In this document: positions 14,114 to 20,045 of the stretch, in pieces
How positions within the stretch are numbered: position 1 is the first letter of the stretch
How the letters are laid out: each line of letters starts with the position of its first letter
DNA from: Betaproteobacteria bacterium
Lineage (GTDB): Bacteria > Pseudomonadota > Gammaproteobacteria > Burkholderiales > SG8-39
Length of the DNA: 39,012 nt
Assembly (NCBI GenBank): GCA_029883975.1
Contig: JAOUIL010000024.1
Coordinates: forward strand, 1 to 39,012
Direction: 5' to 3'
Program-made: the position numbers and the translations under genes
Notes under the pieces: model-generated
Database searches by the model: none
What the model was told of the DNA's origin: nothing
What the model saw: only the letters and a program-made list of their open reading frames with translations

Positions 14114-14905
14114 ATGGACTCCCTGCTCCAAGCCTTCATCCTCGGCATCGTCGAAGGGTTGACCGAGTTCCTGCCGATCTCGAGCACGGGACACCTGATC
14201 CTGGCCGGCGACCTGCTCGGCTTCAACGGCGAGCAGGCCAAGGTGTTCCACGTCGCCATCCAGACCGGCGCGATGCTCGCGGTGCTGTGGGAGTACCGCG
14301 CGCGCTTCTTCGCCGTGGATCCCGCGTTGTGGCGCAACCTCGTCGTGGCGTTCGTGCCGGCTGCCGTGCTCGGCCTTGCCTTTGGCGGCGCGATCAAGCA
14401 GTTCCTGTTCTCGCCGGTGCCGGTGGCGCTCGCGTTCATCGTCGGCGGGGTGATCATCCTGCTGGTCGAGCGCCGGCCGCGCGCGGCGCGCATCGAGTCG
14501 ACGCGCGCGATGATCTGGCAGGACGCGCTGAAGGTGGGCATCGCGCAATGCTTCGCGCTCATCCCGGGCACGTCGCGCTCGGGCGCGACCATCATCGGCG
14601 GCATGCTGTTCGGCCTGTCGCGGCCCGCGGCGACCGAGTTCTCCTTCTTTCTCGCGGTGCCGACGCTGGTCGCCGCAGGCGGCTACGACCTGTGGAAGCA
14701 TCGCGCGCTCTTTTCCGTCGCGGACCTGGACATGTTCGCCGTCGGACTGGCGATGTCCTTCGTCTCGGCGTTCGTCGTGATCCGCTGGCTGGTGCGCTAC
14801 GTCGCCACGCACGACTTCCGGCCGTTCGCGTGGTATCGCATCGCGTTCGGCCTCGCCGTGCTCGCGACCGCCTACACGGGCGCAGTGCGCTGGAGCGGGT
14901 TCTAG
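14114..14905 (+). CDS. uppP: Undecaprenyl-diphosphate phosphatase
   Basis: Recycles the C55 lipid carrier by removing a phosphate from undecaprenyl pyrophosphate, serving peptidoglycan and O-antigen export; over-expression gives bacitracin resistance. The protein has 263 residues and several membrane helices. The first catalytic block is [17 protein letters not shown] (about residues 14-30) and the second is [13 protein letters not shown] (about 154-166), both complete. The ATG at 14114 gives the family's normal N-terminus [15 protein letters not shown]; a longer frame reaching back into the hydrolase gene is not real. Its final four bases overlap the end of the opposing rhodanese gene. Confidence 0.97.
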
Positions 14906-15357
14906 CCCTGCACCCAGGGCAGGCCGGCCTTGCGCCAGCCGTTCAGGTGACCGCGCTGCTGCGCGGGGTCCTTGTCGCCCTCGAATCCCTCGAGAACGTT
15001 GTAGGAGTCCGGCCAGCCCCCATCGGCGGCGGCGGCCGCTGCCCAGTGCGATCGGTGGCCCGACCGGCACAGGAACATCAGCGTGTCTCCTCGCTCGACT
15101 TCCCGGGAGAGCTGCGCCAGGAAATCGGGGTTCGGCGCGTTGCCGGGGTAGGTTTGCCATTCGACGAGCACGCTCCCCGGCACGCGGCCGACGTACAGGA
15201 CCTCGGGCCTGGTGCGCACGTCGACCAGCTTCGCACCAGACTGCATCAGCACATTGGCCTCCGCCGGGGTCAGAGCTCCCGCATAGGGCAACCCAAGCTC
15301 GCGCTTTCGTTCTTCGGCGCGCCGCTTGATCGGGCCGACGTCGATATCAGTGGCCAT
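14902..15357 (-). CDS. Rhodanese-domain protein
   Basis: A 151-residue cytoplasmic protein with one rhodanese domain preceded by a 25-residue charged leader ([17 protein letters not shown]). LVDVRTRPE (44-52) is the conserved entry motif. The active-site loop is CRSGHRS with the catalytic Cys97, followed by [17 protein letters not shown]. The C-terminal extension [15 protein letters not shown] is typical of a subfamily found next to nitrogen and sulfur genes, though its acceptor is not known. It is transcribed away from glnA, sharing the 232-base control region, and converges with uppP. It is a distant paralogue of the smaller rhodanese at 5045-5368, not a recent duplicate. Confidence 0.9.
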
Positions 15358-15399
15358 TGCTGCTACGCATTATAGGAGTCCAACGGCAGTGCATGAGAC

Positions 15400-15414
15400 G
15401 CACCGCGCTGGTGC
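15400..15414. promoter_or_regulatory. Distal NtrC (NRI) binding site upstream of glnA
   Basis: GCACCGCGCTGGTGC has the GCAC-N6-GGTGC dyad and spacing of the NtrC enhancer at the E. coli glnAp2 promoter. Its centre is about 30 bp from that of the second site, roughly three helical turns, and near -128 from the predicted sigma-54 start. Confidence 0.8.
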
Positions 15415-15429
15415 CGACCGCCCCAAAAT

Positions 15430-15444
15430 GCACCAACACCGTGC
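15430..15444. promoter_or_regulatory. Proximal NtrC (NRI) binding site upstream of glnA
   Basis: GCACCAACACCGTGC has GCAC and GTGC half-sites at NtrC spacing; TGCACC at 15429-15434 is a full half-site. It is centred near -98 from the predicted start. Two properly phased sites upstream of a -24/-12 promoter make each of the three assignments more credible. Confidence 0.75.
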
Positions 15445-15508
15445 CTTTGCTTCCATTAGAATTCCCGCAGCATGGCGCGGCAGAGGCGGAAACGGGGAGC
15501 CCGCCTCG

Positions 15509-15524
15509 TGGCATGGAATCTGCT
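15509..15524 (+). promoter_or_regulatory. Sigma-54 (-24/-12) promoter of glnA
   Basis: TGGCATGGAATCTGCT agrees with the consensus TGGCAYR-N4-TTGCW except for C instead of T at the first base of the -12 element. The invariant GG and GC are exactly 10 bases apart. Transcription would start near 15535, giving a leader of about 55 bases before the glnA ATG. Confidence 0.85.
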
Positions 15525-15589
15525 CCAACCAGCGCGATCGGCCGGCAATTGCGGCCACCTCCCATTGCACAAACTCAGGAGATTCTCAG

Positions 15590-17005
15590 ATGGCCATGAC
15601 GGCGGATGACGTCTTGAAGATGGCGAAGGACAAGGAGGTCAAGTTCGTCGACTTCCGCTTCACCGACACGCGCGGCAAGGAGCAGCACGTGCAGGTGCCG
15701 ATCAAGCATTTCACCAAGGACAAGTTCGAGTCGGGGCACGCCTTCGACGGCTCGTCGATCGCGGGCTGGAAAGGCATCCAGGCCTCCGACATGCTGCTGA
15801 TGCCCGATCCGTCGAGCGCGCGCATGGACCCTTTCGCGGACGAGGCGGTGCTCAACATCAGCTGCGACGTGTTCGAGCCGACCGACGGCAAGCCGTATGA
15901 CCGCTGCCCGCGCGGCATCGCCAGGCGCGCCGAGGCGTATCTGAAGTCCACGGGGCTGGGCGACGTGGCCTACTTCGGCCCGGAACCCGAGTTCTTCATC
16001 TTCGACGGCGTGACCTGGAACGTGGACATGTCCGGCTGCTTCGTCAAGATCAAGTCGGAAGAAGCGCCTTGGTCCACGGGCACCGACTATGAGTCGGGCA
16101 ACATGGGGCATCGCGCGCCGGTGAAGGGCGGCTATTTTCCCGTGCCACCGCAGGACAGCCTGATGGACGTGCGCAACGCCATGTGCCTCGCGCTCGAGCA
16201 GCAGGGCGTCGAGGTCGAGGTGCACCACCACGAGGTGGCGGCTGCCGGCCAATGCGAGATCGGCACGCGCTTCGCGCCGCTCGTGCAGCGCGCCGACTGG
16301 ATGCAGATCCTCAAGTACACGGTGTGGAACGTCGCGGCCTCGTACGGCAAGACGGCGACCTTCATGCCCAAGCCCGTGGTGGGCGACAACGGCTCGGGCA
16401 TGCACGTGCACCAGTCGGTATGGAAGGGCGGCACCAATCTCTTCGCCGGCAATGGCTACTCGGGCCTGTCCGAATTCGCGCTGTACTACATCGGCGGCAT
16501 CATCAAGCACGCCAAGGCGCTGAACGCCATCACCAACCCGGGCACCAACAGCTACAAGCGCCTCGTGCCGGGATTCGAGGCGCCGATCAACCTCGCCTAC
16601 TCGGCGAAGAACCGCTCGGCGTCCTGCCGCATCCCGTATGTGTCCAACCCCAAGGCGCGTCGCGTGGAGGTGCGCTTCCCGGATCCGACCGCCAACGCCT
16701 ACCTCGCGTTCGCGGCCATGCTGATGGCCGGCCTGGACGGCGTGCAGAACAAGATCCATCCGGGCGACCCGATCGACAAGAACATGTACGACCTGCCGCC
16801 CGAAGAGGCCGCCAAGGTGCCGCACGTGTGCGCGTCGCTCGAAGAGGCGCTGGCGAGCCTGGAGAAGGACCACGCGTTCCTCACGAAAGGTGGCGTGTTC
16901 TCCGACGATTTCCTCGCGTCGTACATGGCACTCAAGGAAGAGGAATTGACGCGCTTCCGCATGACGACGCATCCGGTCGAGTTCGACATGTACTACTCGT
17001 CCTGA
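15590..17005 (+). CDS. glnA: Type I glutamine synthetase
   Basis: Makes glutamine from glutamate, ammonia and ATP as a cytoplasmic dodecamer. The protein has 471 residues, normal for the type I-beta enzyme. Visible signatures are FDGSSIAGW (beta-grasp end), [10 protein letters not shown], the ATP-binding [16 protein letters not shown] and [17 protein letters not shown]. The adenylylation site Tyr400 lies in KNMYDLPPE, so GlnE control is expected. The ATG at 15590 has AGGAG 8 bases upstream. Expression should depend on sigma-54 and phosphorylated NtrC through the sites at 15400-15524, with ntrB and ntrC encoded just downstream. A strong hairpin terminator follows the stop codon, so ntrBC would be reached by read-through or their own promoter. 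Confidence 0.98.
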
Positions 17006-17031
17006 GCTCCACACAATCTCGCACGATGTCG

Positions 17032-17063
17032 CGGGGACGGGCTTGCCCGTCCCCGTTTCATTT
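17032..17063 (+). terminator. Intrinsic terminator after glnA
   Basis: CGGGGACGGG (17032-17041) and CCCGTCCCCG (17046-17055) form a perfect 10-bp G+C-rich stem with loop CTTG, followed by TTTCATTTC. It starts 27 bases after the glnA stop and ends 6 bases before the DUF4124 gene. It probably attenuates rather than fully blocks transcription into ntrBC. Confidence 0.85.
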
Positions 17064-17068
17064 CTGGT

Positions 17069-17581
17069 ATGTTATTGATCGTGCGCCGATTTTTGCTGCT
17101 GTTGCTGATCGTGCCGGCCCTCCTGCCGGTGCTCGCGCGGGCGCAGGGCGCCGCCGAAGGCACGATCTGGAGCTGCCGCGACAAGGAGGGCCGCACGCAC
17201 GTCACCAACCTGCGCGAGGACACGACCGGCAAGGACTGCCGCATCATCCGGCAGACGCGCGTACAGGTCGTGCCCGCGCCCGCGAGCAATGCCAAGCCGG
17301 CGTCCAAGCCCGCGGCGACGGCGTTTCCGAGGGAAGACTCGCAGTCGCGCGCCAGCGCCCGGGAGCGCCAGCGCGAGATCCTGGAGCGCGAGCTGTCGCA
17401 GGAGGAAAAGCTGCTCGCGCAGGCGCGCAACGAGCTGGAGGAACAGGAGTCCGTGCGCTACGGCGACGAGCGCAACTACGCGCGCGTCCTCGAGCGCCTG
17501 CAGAAGTACAAGGACGCCGTGGAGCTTCACGAGAAGAACATCGAATCGCTCAGGCGCGAGCTGACCATCCTGTACCGGTGA
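17069..17581 (+). CDS. DUF4124-domain protein with C-terminal coiled coil, exported
   Basis: A 170-residue protein of unknown function. The N-terminus is a signal peptide (RRFLLLLLIVPALLPVLARAQ, about residues 6-26), so it should act in the periplasm. A DUF4124 segment follows: IWSCRDKEGRTHVTNLRED, with a Cys pair (WSC and KDC) that could form a disulfide. After an Ala/Pro-rich linker (about 70-90) comes a long charged helix (about 95-167) with heptad character and the repeated L-x-RE pattern, ending in RRELTILYR. It lies between the glnA terminator and ntrB, 17 bases before ntrB. Starts at ATG 17069, TTG 17075 or GTG 17081 are all possible; the first is used. Co-expression with ntrBC is likely, but a role in nitrogen control is unproven. 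Confidence 0.85.
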   Translation: MLLIVRRFLLLLLIVPALLPVLARAQGAAEGTIWSCRDKEGRTHVTNLREDTTGKDCRIIRQTRVQVVPAPASNAKPASKPAATAFPREDSQSRASARERQREILERELSQEEKLLAQARNELEEQESVRYGDERNYARVLERLQKYKDAVELHEKNIESLRRELTILYR

Positions 17582-17598: not shown

Positions 17599-18648
17599 AT
17601 GGCCGCGTCCTTCCCCGGGCTCGAGCTGCTGGCGACCGCGGTGCTCGTGCTCGACGAACAGCAGGTCGTGCGCTACGTCAACCCCACGGCCGAGAACCTG
17701 CTGGGCGCGAGCGCGAAGAGCCTCATCGGCCAGCCCTTTGCGCAGCTGTTCGCGTCCGACCCGGCGCTGGAGAAGGCGCTGTCCGACACCCTGGTGACGC
17801 ACTGGGACTACTCCGCGCAGACGGTGAGCTACCCGCGCGCGGGCCGCGAGCCCCTGCCCCTCGCCTGCACGCTGACGCGCGCCGAGGCGCCCGGCGTGTC
17901 GCTGCTCGCCGAGCTGCGCCCGATCGAGCAGCAGCTGCGCCAGGCGCGCGAGGAGCGGCTGGTCAGCGAGCAGCAGTCCGCCCGCGAGCTGATCCGCAAC
18001 CTCGCGCACGAGATCAAGAACCCGCTGGGCGGCCTGCGCGGATCGGCGCAGCTGCTCGAGCACGAGCTGGACCGGGCGGAGCTGCGCGAGTACACGCAGG
18101 TGATCATCAAGGAGGCCGACCGGCTGCAGGCGCTCATGGACCGGCTGCTCACGCCCCATCGCCAGCCGCGCGTCGAGCGCCTGGGCATCCACGAGGTGCT
18201 GGAGCGCGTGCGCAGCCTCGTGCTGGCCGAGTTCGCGCGCGAGGCCGTGCAGATCGACTGCGACTACGACCCCAGCCTGCCGGATCTCGAGGGCGACAAG
18301 GAGCAGCTCATCCAGGCGGTGCTCAACGTGGTGCGCAACGCGGCACAGGCCATCGCCGGGAGCGGCCGGCCCGGCCGCATCACCCTGCGCACGCGCGCCA
18401 TCCGCCAGGTCACGCTTCTCCGGCAGCGCCACAGGCTGGCACTAGAATTGCAAGTGATCGACGACGGGCCCGGCGTCCCTGAGGACATCCGGGAGAAGAT
18501 TTTCAACCCCCTGGTGTCGGGGCGGGACGGTGGCAGCGGGCTCGGACTGTCGCTCGCGCAGACCTTCGTTCACTACCACCGGGGTGTCATCGAGTGCGAC
18601 AGCCGCCCCGGGCGCACCGTTTTCAGGATCGTGTTGCCGCTGGCATGA
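17599..18648 (+). CDS. ntrB: Nitrogen regulation sensor histidine kinase NtrB
   Basis: A 349-residue cytoplasmic two-component kinase/phosphatase that controls NtrC in response to PII. The N-terminal PAS domain covers roughly residues 5-110 (VLVLDEQQVVRYVNPTAENL at the start). The dimerisation and phosphoacceptor helix has His137 in NLAHEIKNPLGGLRG. The ATPase part shows the N box (VLNVVRNAAQAI), DDGPGVPEDI and GSGLGLSLAQTFV. There is no membrane segment, as expected for NtrB. Its stop codon overlaps the ntrC start as ATGA. It follows the DUF4124 gene by 17 bases. Confidence 0.96.
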   Translation: MAASFPGLELLATAVLVLDEQQVVRYVNPTAENLLGASAKSLIGQPFAQLFASDPALEKALSDTLVTHWDYSAQTVSYPRAGREPLPLACTLTRAEAPGVSLLAELRPIEQQLRQAREERLVSEQQSARELIRNLAHEIKNPLGGLRGSAQLLEHELDRAELREYTQVIIKEADRLQALMDRLLTPHRQPRVERLGIHEVLERVRSLVLAEFAREAVQIDCDYDPSLPDLEGDKEQLIQAVLNVVRNAAQAIAGSGRPGRITLRTRAIRQVTLLRQRHRLALELQVIDDGPGVPEDIREKIFNPLVSGRDGGSGLGLSLAQTFVHYHRGVIECDSRPGRTVFRIVLPLA

Positions 18649-20045
18649 AACCGGTCTGGATCGTCGACGACGACCGCTCTATCCGCTGGGTGTTCGAGAA
18701 AGCGCTCGGGCGCGAGGGCATCGCCTTCAATTCCTTCTCGTCGGCGGACGAGGCGCTGCACGCCTTGCGCAGCGGGCCGCCGCAGGTGCTGGTTTCCGAC
18801 ATCCGCATGCCGGGGCCCTCGGGGCTGGAGCTGCTGCAGACAGTCAAGCAGCAGCACCCCGCGGTGCCAGTCATCGTCATGACCGCGTATTCGGACCTGG
18901 AGTCGGCGGTCGCCGCGTTCCAGGGCGGCGCCTTCGAGTACCTGCCCAAGCCCTTCGACGTCGACCAGGCCGTGGACCTGATCCGGCGCGCGCTCGACGA
19001 GAGCCAGCGCGACGGCCTGGCGGCGGAGCCGCCCGCGGAGGCGCCGGAGATCCTCGGCCAGGCGCCCGCCATGCAGGAAGTGTTTCGCGCCATCGGCCGG
19101 CTGTCGCAGTCGAGCGCGACCGTGCTGATCACCGGCGAGTCCGGCTCCGGCAAGGAGCTCGTGGCGCGCGCGCTGCACCGGCACAGTGCGCGCGCGGCGC
19201 GCCCGTTCGTGGCGATCAATACGGCCGCCATGCCCAAGGATCTGCTGGAATCCGAGCTCTTCGGGCACGAGCGCGGCGCCTTCACCGGCGCGCAGCAGCT
19301 GCGCCGCGGCCGCTTCGAGCAGGCGGAAGGCGGCACGCTGTTCTTGGACGAGATCGGCGACATGCCGGCCGACCTGCAAACGCGCCTGCTGCGCGTGCTG
19401 TCCGAGGGGAGCTTCTACCGCGTCGGCGGCCACCAGCCCATCAAGACCAACGTGCGCGTGATCGCCGCTACGCACCAGAACCTGGAAGCACGCGTGCGCG
19501 AGGGGGCGTTCCGCGAGGACCTGTACCACCGGCTGAACGTCATCCGCATCCGGCTGCCCTCGCTCAAGGACCGGCGCGAGGACATCCCGCTGCTCGCCCG
19601 CCATTTCCTGCTGCACAGCGCGCGCCAGCTCGGCGTGGAAGTCAAGCGCCTGTCCGACGCCGCGATGGAGCACCTGCAGCGCCTGGATTTTCCGGGCAAC
19701 GTGCGCCAGCTCGAGAACCTGTGCCACTGGCTCACGGTGATGGCGCCGGGGCAGGTCGTGGAGCCGGGCGACTTGCCGGCGGAGTTCCGCGACCCGGGCG
19801 CCGCCATCGCCGCCTCGGACTGGGTGGCGGCGCTGGAGCAGGAAGCCGAGCGGCGCCTGGCGCGCGGCGAGACCGGGATCCTCGACGCCCTCAGCCGCCA
19901 GCTAGAGCGCAGCCTCATTCAGCGCGCGCTCGCGCGCACGGCGGGTCGGCGCATCGAGGCGGCGCAGCTGCTCGGCATGGGCCGCAACACCATCACGCGC
20001 AAGATCCAGGAGCTCGGGATCGAGGGTGGGGAGGAAGATAAGTAG
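18645..20045 (+). CDS. ntrC: Nitrogen regulation response regulator NtrC, sigma-54 activator
   Basis: A 466-residue enhancer-binding protein. The receiver domain carries the acidic pocket DDD (8-10) and phospho-acceptor Asp52 (SDIRMPGPSG). The AAA+ domain has Walker A GESGSGKE, the sigma-54-contacting GAFTGA loop and Walker B GGTLFLDEIGD. The C-terminal Fis-type helix-turn-helix is GRRIEAAQLLGMGRNTITRK. The ATG at 18645 overlaps the ntrB stop; an upstream start at 18594 would only extend into ntrB. Once phosphorylated it should bind the two dyads upstream of glnA and open the sigma-54 promoter there. Downstream is a long hairpin. Confidence 0.97.
   Translation: MKPVWIVDDDRSIRWVFEKALGREGIAFNSFSSADEALHALRSGPPQVLVSDIRMPGPSGLELLQTVKQQHPAVPVIVMTAYSDLESAVAAFQGGAFEYLPKPFDVDQAVDLIRRALDESQRDGLAAEPPAEAPEILGQAPAMQEVFRAIGRLSQSSATVLITGESGSGKELVARALHRHSARAARPFVAINTAAMPKDLLESELFGHERGAFTGAQQLRRGRFEQAEGGTLFLDEIGDMPADLQTRLLRVLSEGSFYRVGGHQPIKTNVRVIAATHQNLEARVREGAFREDLYHRLNVIRIRLPSLKDRREDIPLLARHFLLHSARQLGVEVKRLSDAAMEHLQRLDFPGNVRQLENLCHWLTVMAPGQVVEPGDLPAEFRDPGAAIAASDWVAALEQEAERRLARGETGILDALSRQLERSLIQRALARTAGRRIEAAQLLGMGRNTITRKIQELGIEGGEEDK

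Follow-up and report, generated by a model that had tools for sequence, protein, structure and literature searches.

The intergenic region between glnA and a divergent rhodanese gene in this betaproteobacterial genome raises two questions: which of the two genes is served by the NtrC-type sites that it contains, and whether those sites account for the whole of the sigma-54 control of the glnA-ntrB-ntrC cluster that follows. A preliminary description of the locus had proposed a complete NtrC/sigma-54 control region upstream of glnA, and had suggested that the divergent gene might be drawn into nitrogen control by the same sites. We took both proposals to related genomes. The relevant features of the window, that is, of the whole stretch of 39,012 nucleotides analysed, are as follows.

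14902–15357, minus strand: rhodanese-domain gene, 151 aa, divergent from glnA (Pfam Rhodanese, 3e-10)
15369–15374, minus strand: TATAAT, candidate −10 of the rhodanese gene, recognized by conservation
15400–15414, no strand: NtrC-type dyad 1, GCACCGCGCTGGTGC, an exact GCAC-N7-GTGC centred at 15407
15430–15444, no strand: NtrC-type dyad 2, GCACCAACACCGTGC, an exact GCAC-N7-GTGC centred at 15437
15457–15462, plus strand: TAGAAT, candidate sigma-70 −10 of glnA (glnAp1-like), recognized by conservation
15509–15524, plus strand: sigma-54 −24/−12 box of glnA (glnAp2-like), TGGCATGGAATCTGCT, GG-N10-GC, predicted start about 15535
15590–17005, plus strand: glnA, type I glutamine synthetase, 471 aa (TIGR00653, 662 bits against a cut-off of 429; Pfam Gln-synt_N and Gln-synt_C)
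17031–17056, plus strand: intrinsic-terminator-like hairpin after glnA, 11-bp stem
17069–17581, plus strand: DUF4124 gene between glnA and ntrB (Pfam DUF4124, 1e-5)
17599–18648, plus strand: ntrB (glnL), nitrogen sensor kinase, 349 aa (NF008293, 337 bits against a cut-off of 240)
18437–18452, plus strand: intragenic sigma-54 box TGGCACTAGAATTGCA in ntrB, directed at ntrC (codons 280–285, CTG GCA CTA GAA TTG CAA)
18645–20045, plus strand: ntrC (glnG), sigma-54 activator, 466 aa (TIGR01818, 701 bits against a cut-off of 558.6)

Most of what had been proposed for glnA stands. The two exact dyads are where the preliminary description placed them, with centres 30 bp apart, and the −24/−12 box has GG-N10-GC spacing and ends 65 bases before the glnA start (15590). 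The dyad centres of −128 and −98 are correct if +1 is taken as 15535, 12 bases past the C of the GC. The dyads share a helical face only approximately; at a helical repeat of 10.5 bp per turn, 30 bp makes 2.9 turns. Kinase and activator are indeed encoded downstream, both with family profile matches over cut-off (that of NtrC was computed on the ORF from 18594, its start at 18645 being read from the sequence), and the ntrC start overlaps the ntrB stop (ATGA). Many of the relatives fetched have a tblastn match to the DUF4124 gene in the same place, after glnA and before ntrB, and the gene is possibly an operon member.

Taken singly, neither kind of site means much: the window has 3 single dyads where 2.05 are expected, and 19 sigma-54 boxes with two mismatches where 15.2 are expected. 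The combination is another matter. A dyad pair (gap 5–35 bases) occurs once in the 3.44-Mb genome and the reversed-pattern control not at all; sigma-54 is encoded elsewhere in the same genome.

We assembled two samples of glnA loci, one of 80 from named records (the best 80 of at least 588 matches listed) and one of 30 around the rhodanese gene, found in a search of 61 family genomes and including the window's own. Counts at glnA use 107 loci with the glnA start in view, the window among them. Two copies of the window (L001 and L002) and L010, which is the same locus as L033, were left out of the glnA and rhodanese counts, where the window is represented by L003; the glnA start is absent from L008 and L026. 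Of the 107 loci, 102 have a GG-N10-GC box with up to three mismatches no more than 250 nt from glnA; the five box-less loci include L047, which begins 25 bp before glnA and was dropped from the 106-locus count below. Dyads with at most one mismatch peak at 100–104 and at 69–74 bases upstream of the box start across the 107 loci, and 22 of 27 same-family loci, window included, have such a dyad centred 101–104 bases upstream.

Under a stricter rule (at most one mismatch to TGGCAYNNNNNYTGCW; 106 loci, window included), box and dyad or dyads occur together in 96 loci, and the other 10 are without the box. The preliminary description had pointed to related genomes as the place to look for conservation of both dyads, and 64 of the 106 loci do have the box with a dyad pair 28–33 bp apart, most commonly 30 bp (24 loci) or 31 bp (21 loci); a further 32 combine the box with dyad(s) that form no such pair. 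Under order-1 Markov resampling, 0.4 cases of box plus dyad arise per set, and dyad pairs never. Among nine genomes checked for NtrC, three fall below the family cut-off (L045, L096 and L048, the last an assembly of only 1.3 Mb), and these have neither box nor dyads at glnA. There are counter-cases: L105 has NtrC in its genome, yet neither box nor dyads at glnA, and L058 and L062, also with NtrC, have only a two-mismatch box with one nearby dyad.

Three side observations belong here. L064, labelled a Klebsiella pneumoniae MAG, and L047, labelled Rhodospirillales bacterium, have glnA-ntrBC that group with betaproteobacteria in the tree, and these records are probably mislabelled or mis-binned. 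In L115, a locus of the window's own genome, positions 28–152, about 1.3 kb upstream of an amtB match, contain three dyads, one exact and two with a single mismatch, and a sigma-54 box with one mismatch; this cluster probably marks another NtrC target. The other amtB locus, L114, has no sigma-54 box with at most one mismatch.

The region upstream of glnA is a textbook NtrC/sigma-54 enhancer-promoter arrangement, with binding predicted at both dyads. The proposed NtrC/sigma-54 control of glnA is well supported by the NtrC equivalog, the presence of sigma-54 in the genome and the conserved box and dyads. The enteric glnA control region has the promoters glnAp1 and glnAp2 with paired NtrC sites. 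The locus resembles it in its paired GCAC-N7-GTGC dyads about three turns apart, about 100–130 bp upstream of the −24/−12 promoter start, and in a sigma-70-like −10 close to the dyads. It differs in having a divergent rhodanese gene as neighbour, a DUF4124 gene separating glnA from ntrB, and a TAGAAT placed on the downstream side of the dyads, whose −35 would be covered by dyad 2.

That TAGAAT is one of two elements that the word 'complete' had passed over. The word was too narrow: the preliminary description missed a likely sigma-70 promoter of glnA (15457–15462) and the sigma-54 box inside ntrB. Of the 27 same-family loci, the window's among them, 21 have a hexamer of the form TA[AG]AAT at 25–70 nt upstream of the sigma-54 box, where 0.42 are expected. 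A two-hexamer sigma-70 scan of the region found no promoter for glnA or for the rhodanese gene, so both −10 elements are identified solely by their conservation and any −35 must be poor. At 17-nt spacing the −35 would fall inside dyad 2, and bound NtrC should therefore block this promoter. The TAGAAT just below dyad 2 suggests an NtrC-occluded sigma-70 promoter of glnA.

Whether the dyads also serve the divergent gene can be judged from loci in which the two genes have been moved apart. The dyads do lie upstream of the rhodanese ORF (start 15357), as the preliminary description had it. They could be shared, bound NtrC also controlling the rhodanese gene, either as an activator or by covering its sigma-70 promoter. 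Dyad 1 sits just upstream of the expected rhodanese −35, a divergent rhodanese gene near glnA is common among the betaproteobacterial loci fetched, and in some relatives as little as about 24 bp separates the centre of dyad 1 from the rhodanese −10. The gene itself is widespread, with a match (E ≤ 0.001) in 56 of the 61 family genomes, the window's included. Against sharing, the distance from this −10 to dyad 1 is variable, from 24 to 52 bp in the 12 loci with both, and a sigma-54-like box faces the rhodanese gene in only 1 of 60 compact loci. In 12 loci more than 1 kb separates the rhodanese gene from glnA (L043, L046, L048, L049, L051, L067, L074, L077, L083, L095, L100 and L110). None of these has a dyad within 300 nt of the rhodanese gene, and 11 keep at least one dyad at glnA, the exception being L048, which has none. 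In the four separated loci that were translated (L046, L049, L074 and L110) the intervening gene encodes a protein of about 400 aa, which we take to resemble cation-efflux transporters.

On these three grounds (the loci with an inserted gene, the variable −10 distance and the near absence of a box facing it) we rejected the rhodanese gene as a conserved NtrC target, and the suggestion that shared sites draw it into nitrogen control is not supported; control of the rhodanese gene by NtrC at shared dyads seems to us unlikely. The comparative case that the dyads serve glnA, not the divergent gene, is a clean one. Its link to the dyads is probably incidental, the gene being a neighbour with a sigma-70-type −10 of its own. 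In agreement with the latter, 14 of the 27 same-family loci have a TATAAT no more than 80 nt from the place where the rhodanese gene is estimated to start, against 0.31 expected. Incidental occlusion of this promoter by bound NtrC is possible. In Paraburkholderia phymatum the rhodanese gene Bphy_5232 is far, by locus number, from glnA (Bphy_1481), according to the accessible part of PMC5748707.

The second missed element lies in the coding sequence of the kinase. TGGCACTAGAATTGCA is the only zero-mismatch sigma-54 box in the window; it stands 208 bp before the ntrC ATG (18645) and has a predicted start at about 18463, about 180 nt before that ATG. Its presence alone says little. The sigma-54 pattern has 10 matches genome-wide against 15 for the reversed pattern, and with no enrichment of this kind a single box proves nothing without conservation; we therefore rejected the genome-wide count as evidence.

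Conservation was examined in 76 ntrB sequences, comprising 66 from the 80 glnA loci of named records, nine from further family loci (9 of 10 family stretches yielded ntrB) and the window, whose copies were removed before it was added once; this is not a random sample. GG-N10-GC occurs at the same aligned position in 53 of the 76, and the exact pattern TGGCAYNNNNNTTGCW (TGGCAY-N5-TTGCW) at the same codon position in 48. At other aligned positions in ntrB the pattern count never exceeds 1 in sense or 2 in antisense. When codons were redrawn synonymously, 0.64 exact boxes were expected, with a maximum of 4 in 1000 trials. Allowing up to one mismatch, 50 of the 76 have the box against 24.9 in redraws (maximum 35), the contrast being smaller because the peptide itself favours near matches. 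The estimated ntrC start is 208–367 bp downstream of the box in the 50 loci that have it.

Comparing each of the 314 codon columns of ntrB with each genome's own codon usage, we found that the three most anomalous columns are 281, 283 and 280 (0-based), which form the box. Their excesses are 2.08, 1.53 and 1.49 bits, where all 314 columns have a mean of −0.02 and a standard deviation of 0.31. The codons used there are rare overall (GCA 10%, CTA 1%, TTA 2%, TTG 12%). Across all 76 sequences there is a bias at the silent positions read by sigma-54 (position 5 is A in 51, position 12 is T in 51 and position 14 is G in 66), while other silent positions are mixed (position 8 is G in 39, A in 25 and C in 12; position 11 is C in 31, A in 25, G in 16 and T in 4). 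In the 50 loci with the box the sigma-54-read silent bases agree in 49–50 of 50, against roughly even splits elsewhere, a comparison that is partly circular because the loci were selected by the pattern. The internal box has TTGC in 38 of 39 loci, where the glnA box of the same loci has CTGC in 35 of 39. We conclude from this codon evidence that the internal box is a conserved element selected beyond the needs of the protein, and the best interpretation, we infer, is a sigma-54 promoter of ntrC lying within ntrB.

Mapped onto an NtrC tree of the 76 loci, the box needs to change state only three times; large clades are uniform for it, and whole clades, 26 of the 76 loci in all, are without it. 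Lineages with records labelled Cupriavidus, Collimonas, Pandoraea and Herbaspirillum have it, and the loci without it include those examined from Bordetella, Candidimonas and Gallionella. Upstream of ntrC, the 26 loci without the internal box offer one zero-mismatch sigma-54 box, in L109 at −97, and one with a single mismatch, in L043 at −203; the other 24 have weaker ones. The box of L109, TGGCACAAGATCTGCT, is a good alternative 97 bp upstream of ntrC in a locus with no internal box.

We also searched 150 genomes, drawn evenly from the order, for the pattern TGGCAYTNGAMTTGCA. It occurs 20 times, in 19 genomes, and its reversed form once. Of the 19 loci checked, 15 have the match inside ntrB, as does the window (16 matches in all, 15 genomes, 7 families); 4 matches lie elsewhere. 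NtrC is over cut-off in 130 of the 150 genomes, and the exact pattern is in ntrB in 15; only in some of the order, then, is the internal box common. Among 30 NtrC loci of this sample, which were the best-scoring and not a random choice, GG-N10-GC is present in 8 and the full element in 2. Both of these come from genomes already counted in the survey, and the remaining loci write the stretch otherwise. Across the class, 5 of 143 genomes have the pattern and the reversed control gives 4 matches; two of the five belong to the order of the window. The three matches outside the order, which are no excess over the control, have neither an NtrB nor an NtrC match in their loci, so the internal box looks restricted.

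A possible objection to a promoter function is that the internal box binds sigma-54 holoenzyme without giving productive ntrC mRNA, as a closed-complex road-block or a decoy, the glnA region remaining as described above. Escherichia coli has many intragenic sigma-54 sites, of which only some are shown to be promoters, in the accessible text of PMC4591121. The TTGC of the internal box is nearer to consensus than the CTGC of the glnA box, which fits tight binding. Moreover, no NtrC dyad was found beside the internal box within the 300 bp searched in 49 loci. The sole concentration of dyads in that range is at −41, where 10 of the 49 loci, the window not among them, have one with at most one mismatch, 2 being exact. 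Codon redraws explain it (mean 8.3, with 273 of 1000 reaching 10), and we rejected this cluster as an enhancer of the internal box. Two points argue against the objection: the box points at ntrC, whose estimated start lies 208–367 bp downstream of it in the 50 loci, and a pure road-block would hardly need such exact conservation in this one gene. We judge a site of this unproductive kind to be improbable.

The other objection, that a protein or translation constraint (the peptide LALELQ/H before the G1 box, or a pause) keeps these codons and the likeness to sigma-54 is chance, can draw on the partly conserved residues and on the near matches that redraws with up to one mismatch still produce, but it is very improbable indeed, given the excess of exact matches over expectation, the skew confined to the silent bases that sigma-54 reads, and the 30 NtrC loci of the order sample in which the stretch is mostly written otherwise.

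Promoters of the kind that we propose for ntrC have tested precedents. The accessible text of PMC4591121 describes intragenic sigma-54 promoters in nagB, yqeC and rlmD of E. coli that yield mRNA of the following gene with a long leader and are induced when nitrogen is limiting, and the one in rlmD is described there as NtrC-activated. The internal box is like these in being a sense −24/−12 box inside a gene, facing the next gene. It is unlike them in that the host gene is the nitrogen kinase and the target the activator, and in that it is kept at synonymous sites through several betaproteobacterial families. The listed entries of openly licensed papers on the subject announce no sigma-54 promoter in ntrB.

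Published expression data from relatives bear on the proposal in both directions. We compared published statements on expression and promoters in P. phymatum, Burkholderia cenocepacia and Herbaspirillum seropedicae. In P. phymatum under nitrogen starvation, ntrC rises 8.8-fold and glnA 4.0-fold by qPCR, and a second column, which we take as RNA-seq, gives 9.7 for ntrC and 1.9 for glnA (PMC5748707, accessible part). These figures fit an extra ntrC promoter but are no proof of one. In a B. cenocepacia ntrC mutant the log2 change is −5.6 for ntrB and −4.8 for glnA in the accessible part of PMC5491218; ntrB falls as much as glnA, so that ntrB there depends on NtrC acting from further upstream. The title of a 2007 paper credits the H. 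seropedicae glnAntrBC operon with transcription from two promoters upstream of glnA (Schwab 2007, as cited in PMC5648810). An intragenic promoter in ntrB goes unmentioned in it, and to judge by this title H. seropedicae differs from our proposal. The title counts against an internal promoter, although the Herbaspirillum-labelled loci L072 and L092 carry the box.

We consider it likely that the locus combines an NtrC/sigma-54 switch at glnA, a sigma-70 promoter of glnA, a rhodanese gene that is a bystander, and a sigma-54 promoter of ntrC inside ntrB. What the sequences show is the sites, how they are conserved, and the selection on the codons of the internal box; we infer the binding, the identity of the activator, the transcription starts and the regulatory effect described next. 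When nitrogen is in excess, glnA would be kept on by a weak sigma-70 promoter whose −10 is at 15457–15462, and NtrC bound at dyad 2 would shut that promoter off. Under nitrogen limitation phosphorylated NtrC would fill both dyads and oligomerize; by looping it would open sigma-54 polymerase at 15509–15524. The hairpin after glnA, one of 2 terminator-like hairpins in the region, a number not above shuffles (mean 1.7), implies that ntrC may need help beyond read-through. The internal box at 18437–18452 would supply ntrC mRNA whose leader is about 180 nt long, through which NtrC, or another activator, would raise the NtrC level, bypassing the hairpin and without making extra kinase. Activation of the internal box might come from the glnA enhancer about 3 kb away, from NtrC in solution or from a different protein.

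The glnA region is in itself one more example of a textbook switch, and the internal box matters more; it is an element that scans of intergenic promoters alone would miss. Our broader proposal, which we hold with about even confidence, is that several betaproteobacterial families have a sigma-54 promoter within ntrB, conserved at synonymous sites, by which active NtrC can increase its own amount with no dependence on read-through from glnA or on NtrB. If this is true, a two-component system would have a positive feedback loop written into the coding sequence of one of its own members, and the ratio of kinase to regulator would shift when nitrogen becomes limiting.
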